A DNA stretch of 6,435 nucleotides, taken from positions 1 through 6,435 of the forward strand of contig JAKACG010000041.1 of NCBI GenBank assembly GCA_021821605.1, given 5' to 3'. Position 1 is the first letter of the stretch. Each line of letters begins with the position of its first letter. Of the stretch, positions 1-6,435 are shown in pieces. This stretch comes from Microcaldota archaeon (GTDB lineage Archaea > Micrarchaeota > Micrarchaeia > Micrarchaeales > CABMGC01). Both the position numbers and the translations under genes were made by a program. The notes beneath the pieces were generated by a model. It had not been told where the DNA came from and ran no database searches. It saw nothing but the letters and a program-made list of their open reading frames with translations.

Positions 1-332
1 TCTGTATTTTGAAGTAACTGCAATTGAGATGTTATTTCTATTCCAACCTTTTCCATAAGATAATTTTTTGCATCTACTTGTGTTTTTATTGGTGTTTTTG
101 CATCTGAAAACTGCTCGGCGTTACCGCTGATTCTTTGTGTCGTATTAAACATGCTTAACTCATATGTTTGATTGTTGAACTTAAACTTTGTTTTTGTTTT
201 ATCCGTGATTGAAATGTCTTTGAACTCTTTGCCCGTTGCTTCTTCGAGTGCCTTTATAAATAACAGTATATTTGAATCTGATTTAAAAAACTCAATTGGA
301 ATTGAATTTGAGTTTATTTTTTTTAACTGCAT
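1..332 (-). CDS. Unrecognised protein, 5' part only (runs off left edge)
   Basis: An open frame starts at ATG 332-330 (reverse strand) and stays open for 110 codons to the window edge, so the 3' end is missing. An in-frame TAA lies just upstream of the ATG, which fixes the start region. The visible part is hydrophilic and rich in Lys, Thr, Asn and Gln, begins MQLKKINSNS, and shows no signal peptide, membrane segment or motif I recognise. The stretch at residues 21-36 (NILLFIKALEEATGKE) looks helical and amphipathic; residues 37-70 look beta-rich. A TATA-like element about 40 bases upstream gives it its own promoter, so it is probably not simply co-transcribed with the permease behind it. Its upstream sequence GGGATAGGG does not carry the TGA motif seen at most other starts here. 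No function is proposed. It is judged real from the long open frame, promoter placement and orientation. Confidence 0.7.
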   Translation of the reverse strand, partial: MQLKKINSNSIPIEFFKSDSNILLFIKALEEATGKEFKDISITDKTKTKFKFNNQTYELSMFNTTQRISGNAEQFSDAKTPIKTQVDAKNYLMEKVGIEITSQLQLLQNT

Positions 333-366
333 CCCTATCCCTTAACAGTAAAATTTTGATTTTTTT

Positions 367-377
367 GATATATAAAG
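367..377 (-). promoter_or_regulatory. TATA box for the left-edge gene
   Basis: On the reverse strand this reads CTTTATATATC, a good archaeal box A (TTTATATA). Its centre lies about 40 bases upstream of the ATG at 332. Transcription starting about 25 bases downstream would give a leader of roughly 15 bases. It lies inside the 98-base gap behind the permease stop codon. The box is seen in the sequence; the start site is inferred. Confidence 0.5.
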
Positions 378-430
378 CTTCATTTTTAGCTTTTTAGTGT
401 TATTTACTGCATAAATTATTGTGTTAATAA

Positions 431-1771
431 TTACTTGAAAAGTCGTACCTTTATTATAGGTTTTTCCTTTATTTCTCTTAGAAGATAATACACCATAACG
501 CTAAGCATTATCGTTATTACTCCTCCGGCAAGAGCCTCGGATGGAAAACCAAAAAAGAAGATAAATAATGAGAATGAAGCTATTATTGGAACATAAGGAT
601 AAAGGGGCGTTAAAAATAGTTTGGTTTTTTCTAACTTCATACTAGAGAGGATCATACGATGTTTATGGGTATTTTCAAGAGTTCGTATCTTTAATATTGC
701 AAAGCTGTTTATTAAATAACTAAATACTGTCCCAAAGTTGCTTATAGCCGCTATTATGTAAATATTGCCCGCAAAAAGAAACGCAATGCCTAGAAGAATA
801 GTAGTTATCAATGAGTTAGTTTCTGAACTCTTTTTATTTTTATCATGCTTTAGGAATTGAGGCAGTAATCCATCACGTGCCATTTGAAAAATAAGCATCT
901 CACAACCAACAAGCATAGCAAGAGTTGCGCTAGCCGTTGCAACCATAGCAGCTAAATCTACAAGAACAGAAAGAGCTATAGGTGCCGCTCCGGCTTTAAG
1001 TGCTATTGAAAGAGGATCTCCGGATAATGCATATGCAGAGGTTGGTGCAAGCATTAACATAGCAACAGTAACACCGATATACAAAAAGGCGCTTATTAAA
1101 ACAGAGAGCAGTATTGCCTTTGCTGCTGTCCTGCCTCCTCCTTTTATATATGGTGTTATACTGGCTATAGACTGAAAACCGGAGTATGCAAACATTGATA
1201 ACACTCCTGCAGCAAATATACCAGACAGCCCACTTGAGAATAAACTACCTAAGTTCAAATTAACTGCCTTTCCTGCGTATATGCCAAATATTACAAAGAT
1301 TATAAGTACCAATACCTTGAACGATACAAGAACCGTATCTGTTCTGGCTGCTTTTCTTACTCCTTTATGTGTTATATAACCTAAAATCAATATCAAAAGA
1401 ACTGAAAATATTGGCGCAATAGATTGAGAAAGCCCAACAAATGATACAAAATATGAACCAAAACCAACGGCTATTGCTGCTATTGCTGCAACAAAAGAAA
1501 GTAGTCTTAGAATACCAGTTATAAAGCCCATTTCGCTTCCAAAGGCATTATAAGAAAATGAATATGCAGCGCCTACCTCTTTTGGCATTCTTGAGGATAG
1601 TTCTCCAGTTTCTAGAGCAACCAGAATAGCAACAAAACCAGTAAGAAGAAATGCTAGAATAGCGCCAGAGCCAGACAATGTTATTGCTACACCGCTTAGA
1701 ACAAAGATTCCTGCGCCTATTATTGCACCTAAGCCTATAGCCGTTGCTCCAATTAGCCCTATTTTCTCCAT
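431..1771 (-). CDS. APC-superfamily amino-acid permease
   Basis: A 446-residue integral membrane transporter predicted to import amino acids or related amines by proton- or solute-coupled transport; the substrate cannot be read from sequence. Helix 1 carries the glycine-rich APC substrate-loop signature GAIIGAGIFV (residues 15-24). The conserved helix 2 start GAILAFLLTG follows, and the acidic E54/E57 motif lies near its end. Helix 6 is of the broken type, FAYSGFQ (194-200). Helix 8 ends with the typical MARDGLLP (297-304). About 12 helices are visible, at roughly 5-28, 36-54, 83-110, 117-133, 147-165, 182-203, 218-242, 263-293, 321-337, 339-361, 392-410 and 412-432, the usual APC topology. 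Length is normal for the family and nothing appears truncated. The ATG at 1771 is chosen because MEKIGLIGAT leads directly into helix 1. ATGA lies at -8 to -5. A TATA box about 24 bases upstream implies a very short or absent leader. It is monocistronic by spacing and divergent from the ribosomal operon. Confidence 0.93.
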   Translation of the reverse strand: MEKIGLIGATAIGLGAIIGAGIFVLSGVAITLSGSGAILAFLLTGFVAILVALETGELSSRMPKEVGAAYSFSYNAFGSEMGFITGILRLLSFVAAIAAIAVGFGSYFVSFVGLSQSIAPIFSVLLILILGYITHKGVRKAARTDTVLVSFKVLVLIIFVIFGIYAGKAVNLNLGSLFSSGLSGIFAAGVLSMFAYSGFQSIASITPYIKGGGRTAAKAILLSVLISAFLYIGVTVAMLMLAPTSAYALSGDPLSIALKAGAAPIALSVLVDLAAMVATASATLAMLVGCEMLIFQMARDGLLPQFLKHDKNKKSSETNSLITTILLGIAFLFAGNIYIIAAISNFGTVFSYLINSFAILKIRTLENTHKHRMILSSMKLEKTKLFLTPLYPYVPIIASFSLFIFFFGFPSEALAGGVITIMLSVMVYYLLREIKEKPIIKVRLFK

Positions 1772-1790
1772 AAACTCATTTACAAATAGG

Positions 1791-1800
1791 TATAAATATA
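1791..1800 (-). promoter_or_regulatory. TATA box for the permease
   Basis: The reverse strand reads TATATTTATA, a strong box A centred about 24 bases before the permease ATG. With the usual archaeal distance of 22-27 bases from box centre to transcription start, the mRNA would begin at or next to the start codon, so a leaderless message is likely. The leaderless state is inference. Confidence 0.6.
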
Positions 1801-1927
1801 TTTAATTGTATAGGTAAGATATTGTAAGACTATGAATATTTTTAGTAATATTAGAAATATAGCGTAAAATAGTTTTATTTTAGCATAACTTGCTTGTATC
1901 TTTGTTTTGGGTAATATAACAATATCC

Positions 1928-1937
1928 TTATAAATAT
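1928..1937 (+). promoter_or_regulatory. Possible distal TATA box for the S15 operon
   Basis: The sequence TTATAAATAT resembles box A. A start about 25 bases downstream falls near 1958, exactly where the AGCGTT arm of the inverted repeat begins. That would give S15 mRNA a leader of about 68 bases with a possible hairpin. It competes with the proximal box at 2002-2011; which one is used cannot be decided from the sequence. Confidence 0.3.
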
Positions 1938-1957
1938 TCCTGACAAATATATAATCT

Positions 1958-2000
1958 AGCGTTTAAGTTTATTTCAGTACTGCTCTGAGTTTTTAACGCT
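1958..2000. repeat. Inverted repeat upstream of S15
   Basis: Arms AGCGTT (1958-1963) and AACGCT (1995-2000) are perfect complements. A nested TCAG/CTGA pair (1974-1977 and 1985-1988) sits inside, and the 8-base palindrome CAGTACTG lies at 1975-1982. The GC-containing arms stand out in a very AT-rich spacer, immediately before the proximal TATA box. It could be an operator, or a leader hairpin if transcription begins at the distal promoter. Known bacterial S15 represses its own mRNA through leader structure; extending this to an archaeal gene is speculation. Confidence 0.35.
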
Positions 2001-2001
2001 G

Positions 2002-2011
2002 ATATATTTAA
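2002..2011 (+). promoter_or_regulatory. Proximal TATA box for the S15 operon
   Basis: The sequence ATATATTTAA, continued by ATT, is a strong box A centred about 20 bases before the S15 ATG at 2026. At usual archaeal spacing the transcript would start at the ATG, so it would be leaderless. The GTGAT at 2018-2022 would then lie outside the mRNA, which creates tension with its reading as a ribosome binding site. Confidence 0.55.
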
Positions 2012-2025
2012 ATTATTGTGATTTA

Positions 2026-2487
2026 ATGGCAAGGATGCATACAAAAAAACACGGTAAATCAAAATCAAGAAAACCGGTAGTAGAATTAGGAGTAGCTCCA
2101 GAAGGAGTTATCTCGAAAAAGGAGATAGAGACACAGATTTCAGAGTACATGAAGAAAGGGATTTCACCTAGATTAATAGGTCAAAATCTAAAGGATATAC
2201 ACAAGGTGCCTTATATTAAACAGGTTTTTGGAAAAAGACTTACAGTAGTTATGAATGAACAAGGTTACTCACCTGAGTTTCCACAGGATTTATTAGATCT
2301 TATGAAAAGGGCAGTAAATGTCAGAAAGCATTTGGTAGTTAACAAGCAAGATGTGCATAACAAAGTCAGATTGAATAGAATAGAGTCTAAGATTTGGAGA
2401 CTTACAAAGTATTATAAAAAAGAGGGAGTAGTTTCACAAGATTGGAAGTACGATCCTGAAAAAGCTGCACTTATAGTAAAAGGATGA
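2026..2487 (+). CDS. rps15: Small-subunit ribosomal protein S15 (uS15, archaeal type)
   Basis: Primary 16S-binding protein of the small subunit, homologous to bacterial S15 and eukaryotic S13. The 153 residues match the archaeal length of about 150 and are longer than bacterial S15, because of the N-terminal S13/S15 N domain (about 1-60), beginning MARMHTKKHGKSKSRKP. The S15 helical domain covers about 75-147. Its rRNA-contact region is visible in RKHLVVNKQDVHNK (100-113), followed by ESKIWRLTKYYKK (120-132) and the archaeal C-terminal block DWKYDPEKAAL (139-149). No truncation or unusual residues are apparent. The ATG at 2026 gives the family's conserved MARMH start and has GTGA at -8 to -5. 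It is the first gene of a two-gene operon; its TGA stop ends four bases before the S3Ae ATG. In many euryarchaea, as I recall, a RecJ-like nuclease gene lies between these two genes; here it is absent. Confidence 0.97.
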   Translation: MARMHTKKHGKSKSRKPVVELGVAPEGVISKKEIETQISEYMKKGISPRLIGQNLKDIHKVPYIKQVFGKRLTVVMNEQGYSPEFPQDLLDLMKRAVNVRKHLVVNKQDVHNKVRLNRIESKIWRLTKYYKKEGVVSQDWKYDPEKAALIVKG

Positions 2488-2491
2488 GTAT

Positions 2492-3055
2492 ATGGCAACA
2501 GGAAAAGGAATTGAGAATTGGAAAGCAAAAAAATGGGTTAATATATATTCACCAGAGATACTTGGAAACAACACCATTGGAGAGATGCCTGCAGACGAAG
2601 AAAAAGACGCAATGGGCAGGATGATTAAGGTAAGTATGTCATGGATAACTAATAATCCAATGCACTCCTTCATGGTAGTAGGATTAAAAGTAACAGAGGT
2701 AAATGGGAATGCAGCTCATACACAACTTAAGTATCTTGAGCAGACCTTCAGCTACTTACACTCTTTAGTAAGAAGACATGGAAGTACCATATACACAATA
2801 GATAAGTCATTAGATAAAAATGGTAAAACCGTAGTTATAAAACTTTTGCTAACCACAAACACAAGACTTACTACTAAGAAAAGAATGGCAATAAGAAAGG
2901 AGATATCTAACTTTTTAAAGGAGTATATAGTTGGCAATGAAAGCAGCGCTATTGTTAAGGATATAATAGATGGAAATCTACAAAAAGAAGGAGTTAATCG
3001 TGTCCATAAAATAGCAAATATAGCAAAACTCGATATAAAAAGACTTGAGCTCTAA
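2492..3055 (+). CDS. rps3ae: Small-subunit ribosomal protein S3Ae (eS1)
   Basis: Archaeal/eukaryotic small-subunit protein eS1, located at the platform near the mRNA exit and the 16S 3' end; it has no bacterial counterpart. The 187 residues fit the archaeal family. Recognisable blocks are WKAKKWVNIYSPEILG (10-25), IGEMPADEE (29-37), the conserved basic element LHSLVRRHGSTI (89-100), and KTVVIKLLLTTNTRLTTKKRMAIRK (about 112-136), which matches the family's basic RNA-binding segment. The C-terminus ends VHKIANIAKLDIKRLEL. The start is ATG 2492. ATGA lies at -8 to -5, and its TGA is the stop codon of S15, so termination on S15 places the ribosome at this start and translational coupling is likely. 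A long T-tract follows the gene. Because eS1 sits next to the 16S 3' tail, it is relevant to the unusual anti-Shine-Dalgarno sequence in this same window. Confidence 0.95.
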   Translation: MATGKGIENWKAKKWVNIYSPEILGNNTIGEMPADEEKDAMGRMIKVSMSWITNNPMHSFMVVGLKVTEVNGNAAHTQLKYLEQTFSYLHSLVRRHGSTIYTIDKSLDKNGKTVVIKLLLTTNTRLTTKKRMAIRKEISNFLKEYIVGNESSAIVKDIIDGNLQKEGVNRVHKIANIAKLDIKRLEL

Positions 3056-3071
3056 TTAGAATTTAACATTG

Positions 3072-3095
3072 TTTTTTTTTTGGTTTTTAGTTTTT
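3072..3095 (+). terminator. Poly-T terminator of the ribosomal operon
   Basis: A run of ten T (3072-3081) is followed by two runs of five T (3084-3088 and 3091-3095), starting 17 bases after the S3Ae stop. Archaeal RNA polymerase terminates at T-tracts without a required hairpin, so this is a typical strong intrinsic terminator. Confidence 0.75.
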
Positions 3096-3173
3096 AATTT
3101 TAAGTAGGATTAGCCTGCAGTTTAGTTTGATCTTTATATTTCTTTAACTTCTTTATATACAAAAATAATAAAG

Positions 3174-3623
3174 TTATGCATAACTAAGCTTTAGCTTCAT
3201 TTCTCTTTGTTTTTGTTTCTTTGCTTTCTCTCGAGCCTTTAGAAGTAGTAGCTTCTTGTTCTCTTTATCTTCTGCTTTTATCTTTTCCTTTAGAAATTTC
3301 ATTAATACTATTGCGTTATTATGGCGCATGTCACTTGCCGCATATACTAGAGTAATATCATCGCGCCTAGATTTATTAATCAAAACCTTAACATACTCAT
3401 TAGCTTCAAGCTCTTTGCGATATTTTTTTTCAAATATAGCCCATTTTTTAGGATCATGAGAAAACCAATTCCTTAGTTCATTTGTAGGGGCTACATCTCT
3501 TATCCATGTATCTATGTTTGCAGTGCTTCTTCTTACTCCTCGTGGCCAGAGACGATCTACGAGTATACGTTTTCCGTCCATGATGCTTGCTTTTTCATAT
3601 ATTCTTTTTATACCAAGCAACAC
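3174..3623 (-). CDS. DUF488 / YeaO-family protein with lysine-rich tail
   Basis: A 149-residue soluble protein of the DUF488 family (E. coli YeaO relatives); its biochemical function is not known to me. Family landmarks are clear: IKRIYEKAS near the N-terminus, GKRILVDRLWPRG (17-29), a central APTNELRNWF (45-54), the basic-aromatic FEKKYRKEL (64-72), and LVYAASDMRHNNAIVL (92-107) with the characteristic HN.A. The core ends near residue 113. Residues 114-149 form an added tail dominated by Lys, Glu and Gln (KAREKAKKQKQREMK), likely a charged helix and a candidate nucleic-acid or ribosome contact. The start is GTG at 3623, chosen because it places the family's opening residues in frame and has GTGAT just upstream (GTGA at -8 to -5). 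The next ATG, at codon 15, would remove a conserved strand. It is divergent from the membrane protein at 3692 and probably shares its promoter region. Confidence 0.88.
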   Translation of the reverse strand: MLLGIKRIYEKASIMDGKRILVDRLWPRGVRRSTANIDTWIRDVAPTNELRNWFSHDPKKWAIFEKKYRKELEANEYVKVLINKSRRDDITLVYAASDMRHNNAIVLMKFLKEKIKAEDKENKKLLLLKAREKAKKQKQREMKLKLSYA

Positions 3624-3647
3624 AAAATCACATATAAGAATAGGAGA

Positions 3648-3660
3648 GTATATTTAAATA
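3648..3660. promoter_or_regulatory. Palindromic TATA element between divergent genes
   Basis: The 68-base gap between the DUF488 start (3623) and the membrane-protein start (3692) contains TATTTAAATA (3651-3660), a perfect 10-base palindrome and good box A on both strands. Distances from its centre are about 32 bases to the leftward start and about 37 to the rightward start, so each transcript would have a leader of only several bases. One shared bidirectional TATA is the simplest reading, but a second weak box cannot be excluded. Confidence 0.5.
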
Positions 3661-3691
3661 ATTATGCTAGGTAATATAAAATGGAGATATA

Positions 3692-4318
3692 ATGTTCATT
3701 GATGAAATAGCTTATGTTTTATTTGCAATAGGTTTTGTTGGAGTTCTAACATTGTATATGACCATAAGTGTTTTTTATAATTACAGAAAAAATTTAAAGA
3801 AAAAAGAAAATATAGACATATATGGCATAATAAGCGGTGGGATACTACCGCTTGGAGCAGTAGGAATATATTTATTTATAATTTCACTAATAGGTCAGAT
3901 TACTTGGCCATTACCAGGCAGCTATAATATATTATTTTTTGATCCTCTTATGTCTCTTTCTATAGTATTAATAGGATTTGCATGGTCAGTAAGAAGTAGA
4001 ATAAAAATACATTATGTAGGATTATTTTCTCTTCTAGTAGGACTTATGACAATAGATTATGGCATCACAGGATATATGATTGGATTAACACAAAGTCCGC
4101 TAGCTTTTATGGGTCTTTTTGTTACTTTCGGAATTGTTGGAGTACTGGCATTTCCAGTTTCATTAATAATGGACAATCAACCTGGAAAGACATCTTCACA
4201 TCCTAAACTATGGTTTTCTCTTGTGGCATTATTCTGGATATTTTTGATACTTGCTACAGTTATAGCATTTCTAGTTGCTGGATTATCCTTATATCCACAC
4301 TTAAGCACTCCGCCATAA
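3692..4318 (+). CDS. DUF981-like multi-pass membrane protein
   Basis: A 208-residue integral membrane protein of unknown function. The motif TWPLPGSYNILFFDPL (71-86), in the loop between membrane segments, is what I recognise as the hallmark of the archaeal DUF981 family; this assignment is from memory. Hydrophobic segments lie at about 5-28, 43-68, 84-99, 107-128, 133-159 and 174-200, which suggests six helices. A basic loop (YRKNLKKKEN, 31-40) after helix 1 and RSRIK (101-105) suggest cytosolic sides. The C-terminus is short and proline-ended (HLSTPP). The start is ATG 3692 with GGAG at 3683-3686, a more classical purine-rich site than its neighbours have. An ATG at 3681 is followed at once by a TAA and is not a start. 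It is monocistronic, converges with the LAGLIDADG gene, and lies divergent to the DUF488 gene. Confidence 0.82.
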   Translation: MFIDEIAYVLFAIGFVGVLTLYMTISVFYNYRKNLKKKENIDIYGIISGGILPLGAVGIYLFIISLIGQITWPLPGSYNILFFDPLMSLSIVLIGFAWSVRSRIKIHYVGLFSLLVGLMTIDYGITGYMIGLTQSPLAFMGLFVTFGIVGVLAFPVSLIMDNQPGKTSSHPKLWFSLVALFWIFLILATVIAFLVAGLSLYPHLSTPP

Positions 4319-4361
4319 AGTTAAAGACAAAATCTAAAACAAAAGGTAAATGCAGTTCTTG

Positions 4362-4387
4362 TATAATTAGTTTTATATATAATTATA
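4362..4387. terminator. Hairpin between convergent genes
   Basis: Arms TATAATTA (4362-4369) and TAATTATA (4380-4387) form a perfect 8-base stem with a 10-base loop containing TTTT. It lies 43 bases after the membrane-protein stop and 3 bases from the LAGLIDADG stop, so it may end transcription from both sides. The stem is all A-T and therefore weak; such repeats arise easily in AT-rich DNA. Confidence 0.35.
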
Positions 4388-4390
4388 GAT

Positions 4391-4879
4391 CTATTTCGCA
4401 ATATCTAAAACTTTTAACAAAATGCTATAGCCATTAATTATTGAGATAAATGCATTTACGCTCATTACCCTGTTGCCTTTTATATGCACAGTTAAATTTT
4501 CAAGCATTACCTCATCTCCTCTACTAAGTTTTTGGATAAATATATGTCCATCCCTAACATATCCAGAGCCATCGAATATTCCAGCTATATAACTTCTTGC
4601 TTCATGTGTAGGAAGTTTAAAAAGTTTTGTTTGGTTTTCAGTTATTTGCTTAAGCTGCTTGTTTAATTTAGAATGATAAAAGAACACATGCCTTATGCTA
4701 CCATCAACCTCTATAAGCAATTTATTTGGCTCTAATTTAAGCTCCTTTAGACAGATCTCTATGAAATGTTGTTCTATTGCGTCTATGCTTGTTTTTATGC
4801 CTACTGCACCGTTTTCTTCCTTAAATCTACTTTGTATACCTGCAAGATAGCATAATGTCGGTGTGAGTTTTATTTTCAT
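4391..4879 (-). CDS. Stand-alone LAGLIDADG-fold protein lacking catalytic acids
   Basis: A 162-residue protein with two LAGLIDADG-like helices. Repeat one has CYLAGIQSRF (10-19). Repeat two has YIAGIFDGSGYV (97-108), followed by the family's beta-strand pattern GHIFIQKLS (111-119). The spacing of about 86 residues is that of a single-chain two-repeat homing-endonuclease fold. In active enzymes the metal-binding acid is the eighth residue of LAGLIDADG. Here those positions are Arg18 in repeat one and Ser105 in repeat two, although Asp103 survives at position six. Cleavage is therefore unlikely, and a DNA-binding role is more plausible, as known for the LAGLIDADG domain of the bacterial regulator WhiA. 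The gene is free-standing, not inside an intron or intein. The start is ATG 4879 with GTGA at -8 to -5. Just upstream lie repeated ACAATATT elements that could be its own operator. The fold call is strong; the regulatory role is inference. Confidence 0.75.
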   Translation of the reverse strand: MKIKLTPTLCYLAGIQSRFKEENGAVGIKTSIDAIEQHFIEICLKELKLEPNKLLIEVDGSIRHVFFYHSKLNKQLKQITENQTKLFKLPTHEARSYIAGIFDGSGYVRDGHIFIQKLSRGDEVMLENLTVHIKGNRVMSVNAFISIINGYSILLKVLDIAK

Positions 4880-4888
4880 GATTTCACA

Positions 4889-4917
4889 AATATTGTTAAT
4901 TTAATATTGTAAACAAT
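4889..4917. repeat. Direct and inverted repeats upstream of the LAGLIDADG gene
   Basis: On the reverse strand, ACAATATT occurs twice, one copy at about 4906-4913 with a shifted flank and one at about 4889-4896, roughly 14-16 bases apart. ATTGT-n2-ACAAT (4906-4917) forms a dyad overlapping the outer copy. The cluster sits between the TATA box at 4931-4940 and the start codon at 4879, inside the likely leader or promoter-proximal region. It is a possible operator; the AT content makes chance a serious alternative. Confidence 0.3.
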
Positions 4918-4928
4918 TTAGCATCTTA

Positions 4929-4941
4929 GGTATAAATATGT
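4929..4941 (-). promoter_or_regulatory. TATA box for the LAGLIDADG gene
   Basis: The reverse strand reads ACATATTTATACC, with core ATTTATA matching box A. The centre is about 56 bases before the ATG at 4879, which predicts a leader of around 30 bases that includes the GTGA ribosome-binding element and part of the repeat cluster. Confidence 0.45.
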
Positions 4942-5012
4942 ACCCATGTTGATTTTTAGTAAAGATTGATATTTTATATGATTTATAATTTACCATATTT
5001 TCTTAGTGCTCA

Positions 5013-5023
5013 TATTTATATAT
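5013..5023 (+). promoter_or_regulatory. TATA box for the 309-residue orphan
   Basis: The sequence TATTTATATAT is a strong box A about 39 bases before ATG 5057, predicting a start near 5043-5045 and a leader of about 12-14 bases. It lies within the longer reading frame that opens at GTG 5006, which argues against GTG 5006 as the real start. Confidence 0.5.
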
Positions 5024-5056
5024 CAGAAATTTCATAAATTATTATCAGCTGAGCAT

Positions 5057-5986
5057 ATGGCTGAAAAAGAAAAAACTACTCAAAGATTGCAACTTTTTAA
5101 TGCTATAAAAGAAATTAAAAGAGAGGGGTATGTTGGAACTTATGATGCATTAATGTATGCACGCATATTAAACGACATAGATAGGATACCTAAGATAGTT
5201 GTAGATAAAATAAATAAAAGCATAATAGATTCGGGAATTGAATTGAGTTTTAGAGCTACAGAAGAAAATGTTTTTGGATTGGTACGTGGTATAAAAATAT
5301 TGAATACAGAGCTATTAAGAGCATTAAAAGAAAAACATGAAAATAATGAAGATATATTTATTTACTTGAAAATAAAAAAAGAAAGATTAGATAAAGGTTG
5401 TATTTATAATTATATTTTGGACTTTGATCTTAATGATTATTATAATGAAAAGTATGGTGTTTATCCATCTTATGAACTGTTAAGTATTGCCGCAAGCAAA
5501 TTATTTAAAAAAATGCAGGGCAAGGTACTGACTTCGAAAGATTTAGGAGTTAAAGCTGCATGGGAAGTCTTTGAAAGTTGTTACTTATTAACTACAGATG
5601 AAAAACTTTCGATAAATAAACTAATTAATGAGTTTGACTGGACAGAATCTATGTCTAAAGCTAATTTTTATGACATTAAGAACTTTATGAAAAAAACAGC
5701 CAGAAGTATTATATTGAACAAAGAAAATAAAAAGTTCAATAGAATTTTAATAGACGGCGTAGAAAATAATATAGACATAAGAAGAGAACTAGTAATAGAT
5801 TATATTCAAGAAAAAGAGGTTATTAGCGGTGGCCTTCCTGGTTCTGTAGATACAATAAAAAAATGGATAGATATTGATCTTGAGTTCTTAGGAGATGAAA
5901 CTTGTCTTGAGGTACAAAGATTGAAGTATCTGCTAAAAGTTCTAGAAGTAGATAATAATTTCTTTAAAAGATATATAGCTAATTAA
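5057..5986 (+). CDS. Unrecognised soluble protein, 309 residues
   Basis: I do not recognise this protein. The open frame extends upstream to GTG 5006 (326 residues), but ATG 5057 is preferred. The promoter TATA box lies inside the 51 extra bases, and CTGA occurs at -8 to -5 of the ATG. The product is soluble, with no signal peptide or membrane helix, and mostly helical in appearance. It is rich in Lys, Ile, Asn and Glu and has only two Cys (115 and 175 in this numbering, plus Cys283). Segments that look distinct are a helical N-terminus (1-60), a charged middle (85-135), and a region at about 180-220 (KLSINKLINEFDWTESMSKA) that might be a helix-turn-helix but has no secure match. Codon third positions are strongly A/T, more so by eye than in the ribosomal genes. 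It is alone in its transcription unit, divergent from the LAGLIDADG gene and convergent with 16S rRNA. No function is proposed. Confidence 0.85.
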   Translation: MAEKEKTTQRLQLFNAIKEIKREGYVGTYDALMYARILNDIDRIPKIVVDKINKSIIDSGIELSFRATEENVFGLVRGIKILNTELLRALKEKHENNEDIFIYLKIKKERLDKGCIYNYILDFDLNDYYNEKYGVYPSYELLSIAASKLFKKMQGKVLTSKDLGVKAAWEVFESCYLLTTDEKLSINKLINEFDWTESMSKANFYDIKNFMKKTARSIILNKENKKFNRILIDGVENNIDIRRELVIDYIQEKEVISGGLPGSVDTIKKWIDIDLEFLGDETCLEVQRLKYLLKVLEVDNNFFKRYIAN

Positions 5987-6062
5987 AATTAAATCTTACT
6001 TCTTTTAAACATTATATTTTAAATCTTATTTTAAATAATTTCAAAATTAGATTAAAAATGTA
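5987..6062. other. AT-only spacer with T-tracts after the orphan gene
   Basis: This stretch is almost entirely A and T. Plus-strand T-runs (such as TTTT at 6003-6006 and 6017-6020) may end the orphan transcript. On the reverse strand the AAAAA at 6054-6058 is a five-T run that could end the 16S trailer transcript. TTAAATCTTA occurs twice, 30 bases apart (5989-5998 and 6019-6028), probably by chance. Confidence 0.35.
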
Positions 6063-6131
6063 GAATGGATGTAGTCTTGAGTAATAGTGCGAGGTCGCAA
6101 CAATTCTGACGCACACTAAAATAGTTTTAGG
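6063..6131 (-). ncRNA. Structured GC-richer trailer downstream of 16S rRNA
   Basis: This roughly 65-base island has clearly more G and C than the nearly pure A/T flanks, which in an AT-rich genome often marks structured RNA. On the reverse strand, TAGTGTGCG pairs with CGCACTA across an 18-base loop, leaving a two-base bulge; the inner TGCG-ACCT-CGCA offers an alternative hairpin. Lying directly downstream of 16S in its direction of transcription, it may be pre-rRNA trailer used in processing, such as one strand of a bulge-helix-bulge with the 5' leader outside this window. I find no C/D or H/ACA signature and no tRNA. The function is inferred from position and composition only. Confidence 0.35.
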
Positions 6132-6156
6132 GAAACAATTTTTAAAAAAATGTTTC
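6132..6156 (-). repeat. Hairpin abutting the 16S 3' end
   Basis: On the reverse strand GAAACA (6156-6151) pairs perfectly with TGTTTC (6137-6132), enclosing a seven-T run followed by A residues. It begins at the base after CACCTC, so it marks the probable 3' boundary of mature 16S. It may be a processing signal or, given the seven T, a partial terminator. Confidence 0.45.
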
Positions 6157-6435
6157 GAGGTGATCTATCCGCAGGTTCCCCTACGGATACCTTGTTATAC
6201 CTTAGCCCCCCTCACGAGACCTTAGTTCGACAGTGTCTATTACGATACTGCGTCACTAAGACCCCACTTGGATGACTTGGTAGGCGGTGTGTGCAAGGAG
6301 CGGGGACTTATTCACCGCTCGATGATGACAAGCGATTACTAGGGATTCCAACTTCATGAGGGTGAGTTTCAACCCTCAATCCGAACTTAGATTGGTTTTA
6401 GGGGATTGGCTCCTCATTTCTGAGTGGCAGCCCAT
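6157..6435 (-). rRNA. rrs: 16S ribosomal RNA, 3' portion (about the last 280 bases)
   Basis: The reverse strand carries conserved 16S landmarks. CCTTGCACACACCGCC matches E. coli positions 1387-1403. AACAAGGTA matches about 1499-1507. The helix 45 loop GGGGAACC includes the dimethylated A1518 and A1519, and GATCACCTC ends the molecule. The 5' part continues beyond the right edge. Unusual bases occur at the decoding-site helix 44 (1404-1411 with 1489-1497), all compensated in the partner strand, and in helix 45 (1506-1508 with 1527-1529), also compensated. The tail reads CACCTCG instead of CACCTCC, so the anti-Shine-Dalgarno core is shortened or shifted. Paired changes argue that this is a functional gene, not a pseudogene or sequencing error. 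No 23S or tRNA-Ala follows; the next gene in this direction is the convergent orphan, so 16S appears unlinked from 23S. The exact mature 3' end is inferred. Confidence 0.97.

Follow-up and report, generated by a model that had tools for sequence, protein, structure and literature searches.

A lineage-wide C1406–G1495 pair in place of U1406·U1495 in the 16S rRNA decoding site of Micrarchaeota

In a 2011 paper the U1406–U1495 pair of the small-subunit rRNA is described as 'universally conserved', with the mitochondria of trypanosomatids as the exception. PMC3101183 reports 1406C–1495G as the natural state in trypanosomatid (Leishmania and Trypanosoma) mitochondria, where it is called 'unique' and 'exceptional', and shows that Trypanosoma also has A–U at 1409–1491. 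According to the same paper, M. smegmatis recombinants with 1406C–1495G grow and their MICs were measured; they are highly resistant to gentamicin and tobramycin, and neomycin and paromomycin remain active against them. The paper also reports an unsuccessful attempt to give bacteria the complete 27-nt site of trypanosomatid mitochondria; this cautions that the pair by itself may be easy to accommodate and the full rewrite not. The double mutant U1406C/U1495G of Hobbie et al. is also cited in PMC3140962, which argues, for drug recognition, that negative potential at base 1495 outweighs geometry. Our literature search, which left most subscription papers and other spellings beyond its reach, found no report of C1406–G1495 in archaea or bacteria.

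The window analysed here comprises positions 1–6,435 (6,435 nucleotides) of contig JAKACG010000041.1 from the Microcaldota archaeon assembly GCA_021821605.1. The features of interest are as follows.

6155..6435, minus strand: 3′-terminal 281 nt of an archaeal 16S (SSU) rRNA gene (RF01959), the 5′ part of which lies beyond the right edge of the window
6282–6275, minus strand: 5′ strand of upper helix 44, E. coli positions 1404–1411, U A C C A A G U (direct reading and RF01959)
6282, 6281, 6280 and 6278, minus strand: U1404, A1405, C1406 and A1408, respectively (direct reading)
6206–6198, minus strand: 3′ strand of upper helix 44, E. coli positions 1489–1497, G C U A A G G U A (direct reading and RF01959)
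6203, 6202, 6200, 6199 and 6198, minus strand: A1492, A1493, G1495, U1496 and A1497, respectively (direct reading)
6280 and 6200, minus strand: C1406 opposite G1495, a Watson–Crick pair in place of U1406·U1495
6281 and 6199, minus strand: A1405 opposite U1496, G–C in 168 of 188 genomes of the phylum
6155..6166, minus strand: 16S 3′ end, GATCACCTCGA, in which the anti-Shine–Dalgarno core CCTCC is absent (CCTCG)
Rest of the window: an amino acid permease, ribosomal proteins S15 and S3Ae, a DUF488 protein, a DUF981 protein and open reading frames without a family match

Positions 6155–6435 (minus strand) match RF01959, the archaeal SSU rRNA model, with 244.7 bits against a gathering score of 50 (E = 1.7e-69). 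The alignment covers model positions 1198–1478 of 1478; it is cut at its 5′ side by the window edge and reaches the model 3′ end, and together with the score above the curated threshold this identifies the sequence as archaeal SSU rRNA. A small number of non-standard helix 44 pairs are flagged in this alignment. Elsewhere in the window, the open reading frames at 4391–4879 (minus strand, 162 aa) and 5006–5986 (plus strand, 326 aa) have no Pfam or NCBIfam match; the former has what we take, by eye, to be a LAGLIDADG-type likeness.

The upper part of helix 44 in the window contains the pairs U1404–A1497, A1405–U1496, C1406–G1495, C1407–G1494, A1409–U1491, G1410–C1490 and U1411–G1489. A1408, A1492, A1493 and C1407–G1494 of the standard decoding site are all retained, but the uridines at 1406 and 1495 are replaced by cytosine and guanine, which form the Watson–Crick pair by which the C1406–G1495 site of PMC3101183 is defined. 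The minus-strand reading and the RF01959 match thus agree with the original prediction in its letters, pairs and outer coordinates, and in its central statement that the mismatch has become a C–G pair while the three adenines are kept. When compared with the standard archaeal helix 44 (RF01959, Thermoplasmatota and basal Micrarchaeota), the window has A1408, A1492, A1493, C1407–G1494 and A1409–U1491 in common and differs at all three of C1404–G1497, G1405–C1496 and U1406·U1495. The trypanosomatid site shares 1406C–1495G (and, in Trypanosoma, A–U at 1409–1491) but is an organellar eukaryotic rRNA, whereas the present example belongs to the cellular 16S rRNA of a large archaeal clade and combines the pair with U1404–A1497 and A1405–U1496. 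The engineered M. smegmatis 16S rRNA has the identical pair in a viable A1408 site; it is, however, laboratory-made in a bacterial background, and the window is natural and carries three further altered pairs. We take that bacterial background to be C1404–G1497, G1405–C1496 and C1409–G1491.

The nearest 16S sequences among the loci compared are those of Micrarchaeota, with identities over 280–281 nt of 97.5% (L115/L319), 96.8% (L029/L121) and 96.1% (L066/L318). Written as bases 1404–1406 followed by bases 1495–1497, the window has the state UAC/GUA; the same state is found in all three of these relatives, and also in the complete genome record of 'Ca. Micrarchaeum' sp. A_DKE (L069/L123). The closest relatives therefore share the paired letters of the window rather than showing the standard bases here. 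The identity and the shared state place the window among the C1406–G1495 Micrarchaeota; the rows of the tree described below come from other genomes.

The phylum of 'Ca. Micrarchaeum' A_DKE was represented by 301 genomes, 188 of which matched a pattern in which 1396–1403, 1407–1408 and 1499–1505 were fixed and 1404–1406 and 1409–1498 were free; the other 113 may be incomplete bins, contain introns or hold states outside the pattern. In each of the 188, both strands of the helix were read from a single match (G175 and G247 gave two). The names Micrarchaeota, Iainarchaeota, Thermoplasmatota and Patescibacteria as used here are assumed, on the basis of record titles. At 1406–1495 there are 95 genomes with C–G and 93 with U·U, and no genome of the 188 has C·U, U·G, A–U or U–A. 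The 1404–1497 pair is C–G in 94 genomes and U–A in 94, and the 1405–1496 pair is G–C in 168 and A–U in 20, each of the latter with C1406–G1495. The joint states are CGU/UCG (79 genomes), UGC/GCA (60), UAC/GUA (20, the full state of the window), CGC/GCG (15) and UGU/UCA (14). The pattern left A1492, A1493 and G1494 free, and all 188 genomes retain them; C1407 and A1408 were fixed by it. As A1409–U1491 occurs in 182 of the 188 and G1410–C1490 in 150, these two changes are the local norm, and A1409–U1491 is also seen in 30 of 30 Thermoplasmatota loci; U1404 is likewise present in U·U lineages. The statement that five pairs differ from those of E. coli on both strands is correct, but two of them (1409–1491 and 1410–1490) are standard for the phylum and U1404–A1497 is found in half of it. 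Among the archaea read, only 1406–1495 and 1405–1496 set the window apart.

The possibility of an assembly error, a pseudogene or contamination can be weighed against these counts and against a wider scan of species genomes with C1406, C1407 and A1408 fixed. The scan gave at least 119 loci: 104 are 16S and carry C1406–G1495, 14 are not 16S, and in one, from a Euryarchaeota bin, C1406 faces U1495; among the matches listed, G1495 thus stands opposite C1406 in 104 of 105 16S loci. By record title these C–G loci, at least 104 in number, include 82 Micrarchaeota or a subgroup of it, six Marsarchaeota and 11 of a single Clostridia type, including one that bears the title Prevotella; the others among the matches listed are L023, L024, L057, L101 and L106. 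Many carriers are metagenome bins, and some of these seem to be mislabelled (L102, titled Prevotella, and L034, titled Marsarchaeota), which would be grounds for suspicion. However, all 188 phylum genomes have either C–G or U·U, and the complete A_DKE record (L069) carries C–G. We reject an artefact, to which we assign a negligible probability, on the basis of the same pair in 95 phylum genomes, relatives of 96.8–97.5% identity and the near-invariant partnering of C1406 with G1495. The earlier argument that paired changes speak against error is borne out by the 95 genomes, in which both strands change together.

Several record titles deserve comment. The six Marsarchaeota-titled bins (L034, L084, L087, L094, L103 and L117) carry a Micrarchaeota-type 16S and their titles seem discordant, and the Prevotella-titled L102 carries the 16S of the Clostridia C–G type. 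L101, titled Micrarchaeota, has the same helix 44 as G535, a genome assigned to the same phylum as the Diapherotrites genome G010.

The history of the pair was examined using a maximum-likelihood 16S tree, HMM-trimmed and with the trait columns masked, in which 159 of 194 rows were kept (at least 45% of columns filled); these are 154 of the 188 phylum genomes and five outgroup rows (three U·U and two C–G). All basal Micrarchaeota clades are U·U. The C–G Micrarchaeota rows all fall within a single 90-row clade, which has support 100 in the quick tree and a long stem of 0.25 changes per site; this clade also contains 11 U·U rows, ten of them UGU and one, G119, a CGU genome placed among the UGU rows. 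The free trees, quick and careful, need four changes at 1406, four at 1405 and 11 at 1404. Within Micrarchaeota the C–G pair may therefore have been lost again or gained more than once, which leaves the sequence of steps uncertain. A single origin of C–G was not rejected: constraining all C–G rows to group together gave a tree that improves on the quick one by 28 log units (p-AU 0.739), and a single gain is accordingly allowed. A single origin of A1405–U1496 was rejected (p-AU 0.0005), and this step therefore seems to have been repeated, in the Micrarchaeota phylum always with C1406–G1495 present. The C–G state is no oddity of one sequence; it is a clade trait in Micrarchaeota, with both sides changing together, and it recurs in bacteria. 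Common descent with the trypanosomatid rRNA does not fit an archaeal 16S in which C–G is nested within a phylum that is basally U·U, in an alignment of sequences other than trypanosomatid rRNA.

The 3′ end of the 16S rRNA in the window reads CACCUCG and is missing the core CCUCC. When CCTCC was sought within 75 nt from A1499, it was present in 71 of 79 CGU genomes, in one of 14 UGU genomes (G048, not a member of the derived clade) and in none of the 95 C1406–G1495 genomes. CCTCC is also missing from G119, the one CGU member of the derived clade, and from seven basal CGU genomes with U·U. The loss of this motif suggests initiation in Micrarchaeota that may be independent of a Shine–Dalgarno interaction. 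The C–G pair could then be part of a remodelled initiation system in the derived Micrarchaeota, in which the anti-Shine–Dalgarno sequence was lost and the P/A-site junction of helix 44 re-tuned for such starts. The absence of CCTCC from 95 of 95 C–G genomes, 13 of 14 UGU genomes and G119 is consistent with this, and the tree places the two changes together, on the long stem branch or immediately above it; one clade, however, amounts to one event. CCTCC is intact in the other C–G lineages (two of two Iainarchaeota, two of two genomes of the Patescibacteria class and 14 of 14 Clostridia loci, some from the same genome), the UGU genomes lost it without gaining C–G, and the seven basal CGU genomes keep U·U without it. 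The association with the loss of CCTCC is thus real within Micrarchaeota but absent from the other C–G lineages, and we consider a causal link with initiation to be improbable.

Outside Micrarchaeota the C–G pair appears in several groups. In Iainarchaeota five of 19 genomes matched, two with C–G (L106/L120 and L266) and three with U·U. In the Clostridia family of G006, 37 of 118 genomes matched (one solely via a non-16S stretch) and nine of 36 have C1406; all nine are C–G on both strands, and 26 of the 27 U·U genomes were read on both strands. The 1409–1491 pair in this family is A–U in the nine C–G genomes and C–G in all 26 U·U genomes read. In the wider Clostridia order, 24 of 151 genomes matched (one not 16S), with C1406 in G004 only and A1409–U1491 in two U·U genomes (L221 and L222). 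The Clostridia tree separates the C–G rows from the U·U rows, apart from a stray non-16S row (L209). In the Patescibacteria class of G007, 41 of 76 genomes matched (one not 16S), with C1406 in G007 and G009 and G1406 in G461; both sides of the pair were read in 29 16S loci, of which 26 are U·U, two C–G and one G–C. Eight of ten genomes in the order of G009 matched, and only G009 has C1406. The single bin G461 (L254) carries the opposite Watson–Crick pair, G1406–C1495. From C–G amid U·U relatives in Iainarchaeota, Clostridia and the two Patescibacteria (the last judged from the states of their relatives) we infer separate origins, which, with Micrarchaeota, would make at least five further origins of C–G in cellular genomes.

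In Thermoplasmatota, C1406–G1495 was found in none of the 90 matched genomes (of 155); both sides of the pair were read in 30 loci, each of them U·U, and 1406 alone in the rest, and the matches include one non-16S sequence (G699:C45) and one of bacterial appearance (G666). The sole C1406 is in one of two 16S copies of G008, a Euryarchaeota bin: this copy (L124) has C1406 opposite U1495 and the 3′ end GATCCCCTCC, and the other (L125) is standard. These may be two strains in one bin or one decaying copy. The suggestion that the C–G state is rare among archaea thus holds for Thermoplasmatota but not for Micrarchaeota (95 of 188 genomes) or Iainarchaeota (two of five readable genomes).

Features that might change together with the pair were compared in a hand-picked sample of four lineages in which some of the 16S sequences are incomplete (C-state/U-state genomes: Micrarchaeota 7/7, Iainarchaeota 2/3, Clostridia 5/9 and the Patescibacteria class 2/5). 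Co-change was taken to mean that, in at least three of the four lineages, the two states have different majority bases, each shared by at least 80% of the sequences of its state; by this measure no 16S column besides 1406 and 1495 changes with C–G. In ribosomal protein uS12 the decoding loop is PHSG in 25 and PSSG in one of the 26 Micrarchaeota-phylum genomes with a match (30 searched). As PHSG occurs with both states of 1406–1495, uS12 is not linked to C–G, and a partner change in this protein was rejected. The loop of this phylum (KQPHSG in 25 of 26, KQPSSG in one) differs from the KQPNSA/KQPNSG of the four solved archaeal chains that match best, and the following arginine is replaced by Ile, Leu or Val (L412–L437). 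Among the 120 homologues listed (P0001–P0120), the motif is PHSG in 99, PNSG in 14, PTSG in four, PSSG in two and none of these in one. Helix 69 of the 23S rRNA, which we take to be bridge B2a, was matched in 20 of 80 genomes, 18 of which are plausible 23S; its loop TAACTCTGA is present in 12 of 14 U·U and three of four C–G genomes, and with only four C–G genomes no link is shown.

In our view, these data are best described by a functional helix 44 decoding site in which U1406·U1495 was replaced as a unit by C1406–G1495, in a stepwise order, with near-normal decoding and an altered drug pocket as a by-product, and we regard this reading as probably correct. The pair appears to be a viable compensated double substitution, with 1404–1497 weakened before it and 1405–1496 relaxed after it. 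The first step would be C1404–G1497 to U1404–A1497 (CGU to UGU, the latter still extant in relatives) and the second U·U to C–G at 1406–1495, after which, in the Micrarchaeota phylum, G1405–C1496 could become A1405–U1496. The mismatch lies one pair below the A1408/A1492/A1493 loop, and C–G closes this step with three hydrogen bonds. We propose that A1405–U1496 is tolerable because the new C–G holds the helix closed beneath the loop.

Nearest-neighbour models, which are crude for 1×1 and 1×2 loops, give hairpin energies of −3.4 (CGU), −2.4 (UGU), −8.5 (UGC), −6.5 (UAC) and −9.5 kcal/mol (CGC), and −0.2 to −1.7 kcal/mol for a hypothetical A1405–U1496 beside U·U. The predicted −6.5 kcal/mol for A1405–U1496 beside C–G agrees with the confinement of A–U to the C–G background in the Micrarchaeota phylum. 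A1405–U1496 does occur with U·U in two genomes of the Patescibacteria class (G499/L251 and G525/L411), and A–U at 1405 is therefore not strictly dependent on C–G. Two other ideas were rejected. Conservation of stability fails because C–G overshoots by about 6 kcal/mol and does not restore the CGU energy. A balance with a weak 1409–1491 pair fits the Clostridia family only and was rejected as a general account; contrary to it, G007 has C–G at both 1406–1495 and 1409–1491, and five of the six Micrarchaeota genomes with G–C or C–G at 1409–1491 have C1406.

In all of the loci read the Watson–Crick pair is nearly always C–G, once G–C and never A–U or U–A. C–G could be favoured over U–A or A–U by the major-groove carbonyl that G1495 retains where U1495 had one, so that the electrostatic face of base 1495 would survive. 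The near-exclusive choice of C–G agrees with the argument on base 1495 in PMC3140962; G461, with G1406–C1495, is the exception to the carbonyl rule. Neutral drift without stepwise logic, in lineages whose genomes are small and whose ribosomes are under relaxed constraint, would also be compatible with the assembly sizes of the carriers (about 0.5–1.3 Mb in Micrarchaeota, 0.7–1.2 Mb in the nine Clostridia and 0.9 Mb in both Patescibacteria) and with the viability of the engineered pair described in PMC3101183. The U·U members of the same groups are, however, similar in assembly size. Drift also sits poorly with the restricted choice of pair, the invariance of A1492, A1493 and G1494, and the lack of any mixed intermediate in the 188 genomes; the one C·U copy seen elsewhere (G008:C12, L124) has a standard copy in the same bin. 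We therefore consider drift unlikely, although it deserves some weight.

Under the preferred reading, replacement as a unit, the resulting decoding site would work about normally, judging by analogy with the viable engineered pair and by its presence in whole lineages. By the same analogy the pocket would be insensitive to 4,6-aminoglycosides and sensitive to 4,5-aminoglycosides, a by-product rather than a selected purpose. The relevance to drug binding is thus narrower than originally claimed: in PMC3101183 the engineered M. smegmatis pair is highly resistant to 4,6-disubstituted aminoglycosides, and 4,5-disubstituted aminoglycosides remain active. The pair might instead have been selected as a defence, shutting out 4,6-disubstituted 2-deoxystreptamine aminoglycosides made by neighbouring microbes. 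The high gentamicin and tobramycin resistance of the engineered pair (PMC3101183) is as such a defence would predict, but the continued action of neomycin and paromomycin in the same source is not. The recurrence of the pair in archaea and bacteria, some from gut samples by record title, also fits; the trait is, however, fixed throughout a deep clade and not scattered, and the changes at 1405–1496 and 1404–1497 are left unexplained. Furthermore, A1408, a strong aminoglycoside determinant, is unchanged in the genomes read, where it was fixed by the pattern. A defensive origin thus seems very doubtful, and aminoglycoside selection is unlikely to be the main cause.

The changed helix 44 letters fall under standard reverse primers. 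The window mismatches three of the last six 3′ bases of 1492R and has three mismatches to 1406R, and the last six bases of 1492R are mismatched in none of the 79 CGU relatives. Primer mismatches in DPANN archaea in general have been reported in PMC8407392, in the available text of which we did not find a structural cause at 1406–1495.

Overall, C1406–G1495 is a real, paired, lineage-wide and apparently convergent natural variant of a known decoding-site state, and presumably a functional one. The universality of U1406–U1495 is contradicted, and the exception extends to an archaeal clade, to a second archaeal phylum and, by inference, to three bacterial origins. This suggests that U1406·U1495 is not required for decoding, and the states CGU, UGU, UGC, UAC and CGC offer a natural series for probing the role of the mismatch in fidelity, in the dynamics of A1492 and A1493 and in drug specificity. 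We tentatively raise the possibility that the mismatch is dispensable in cellular life and that these Micrarchaeota, with a remodelled decoding and initiation centre (C1406–G1495, its U–A and A–U neighbours, no anti-Shine–Dalgarno core and a mostly PHSG uS12 loop, also found in U·U relatives, in place of the PNSA/PNSG of solved archaeal chains), may represent a natural experiment in altered decoding, the C–G pair of which is echoed in Iainarchaeota, Clostridia, Patescibacteria and the mitochondria of trypanosomatids.
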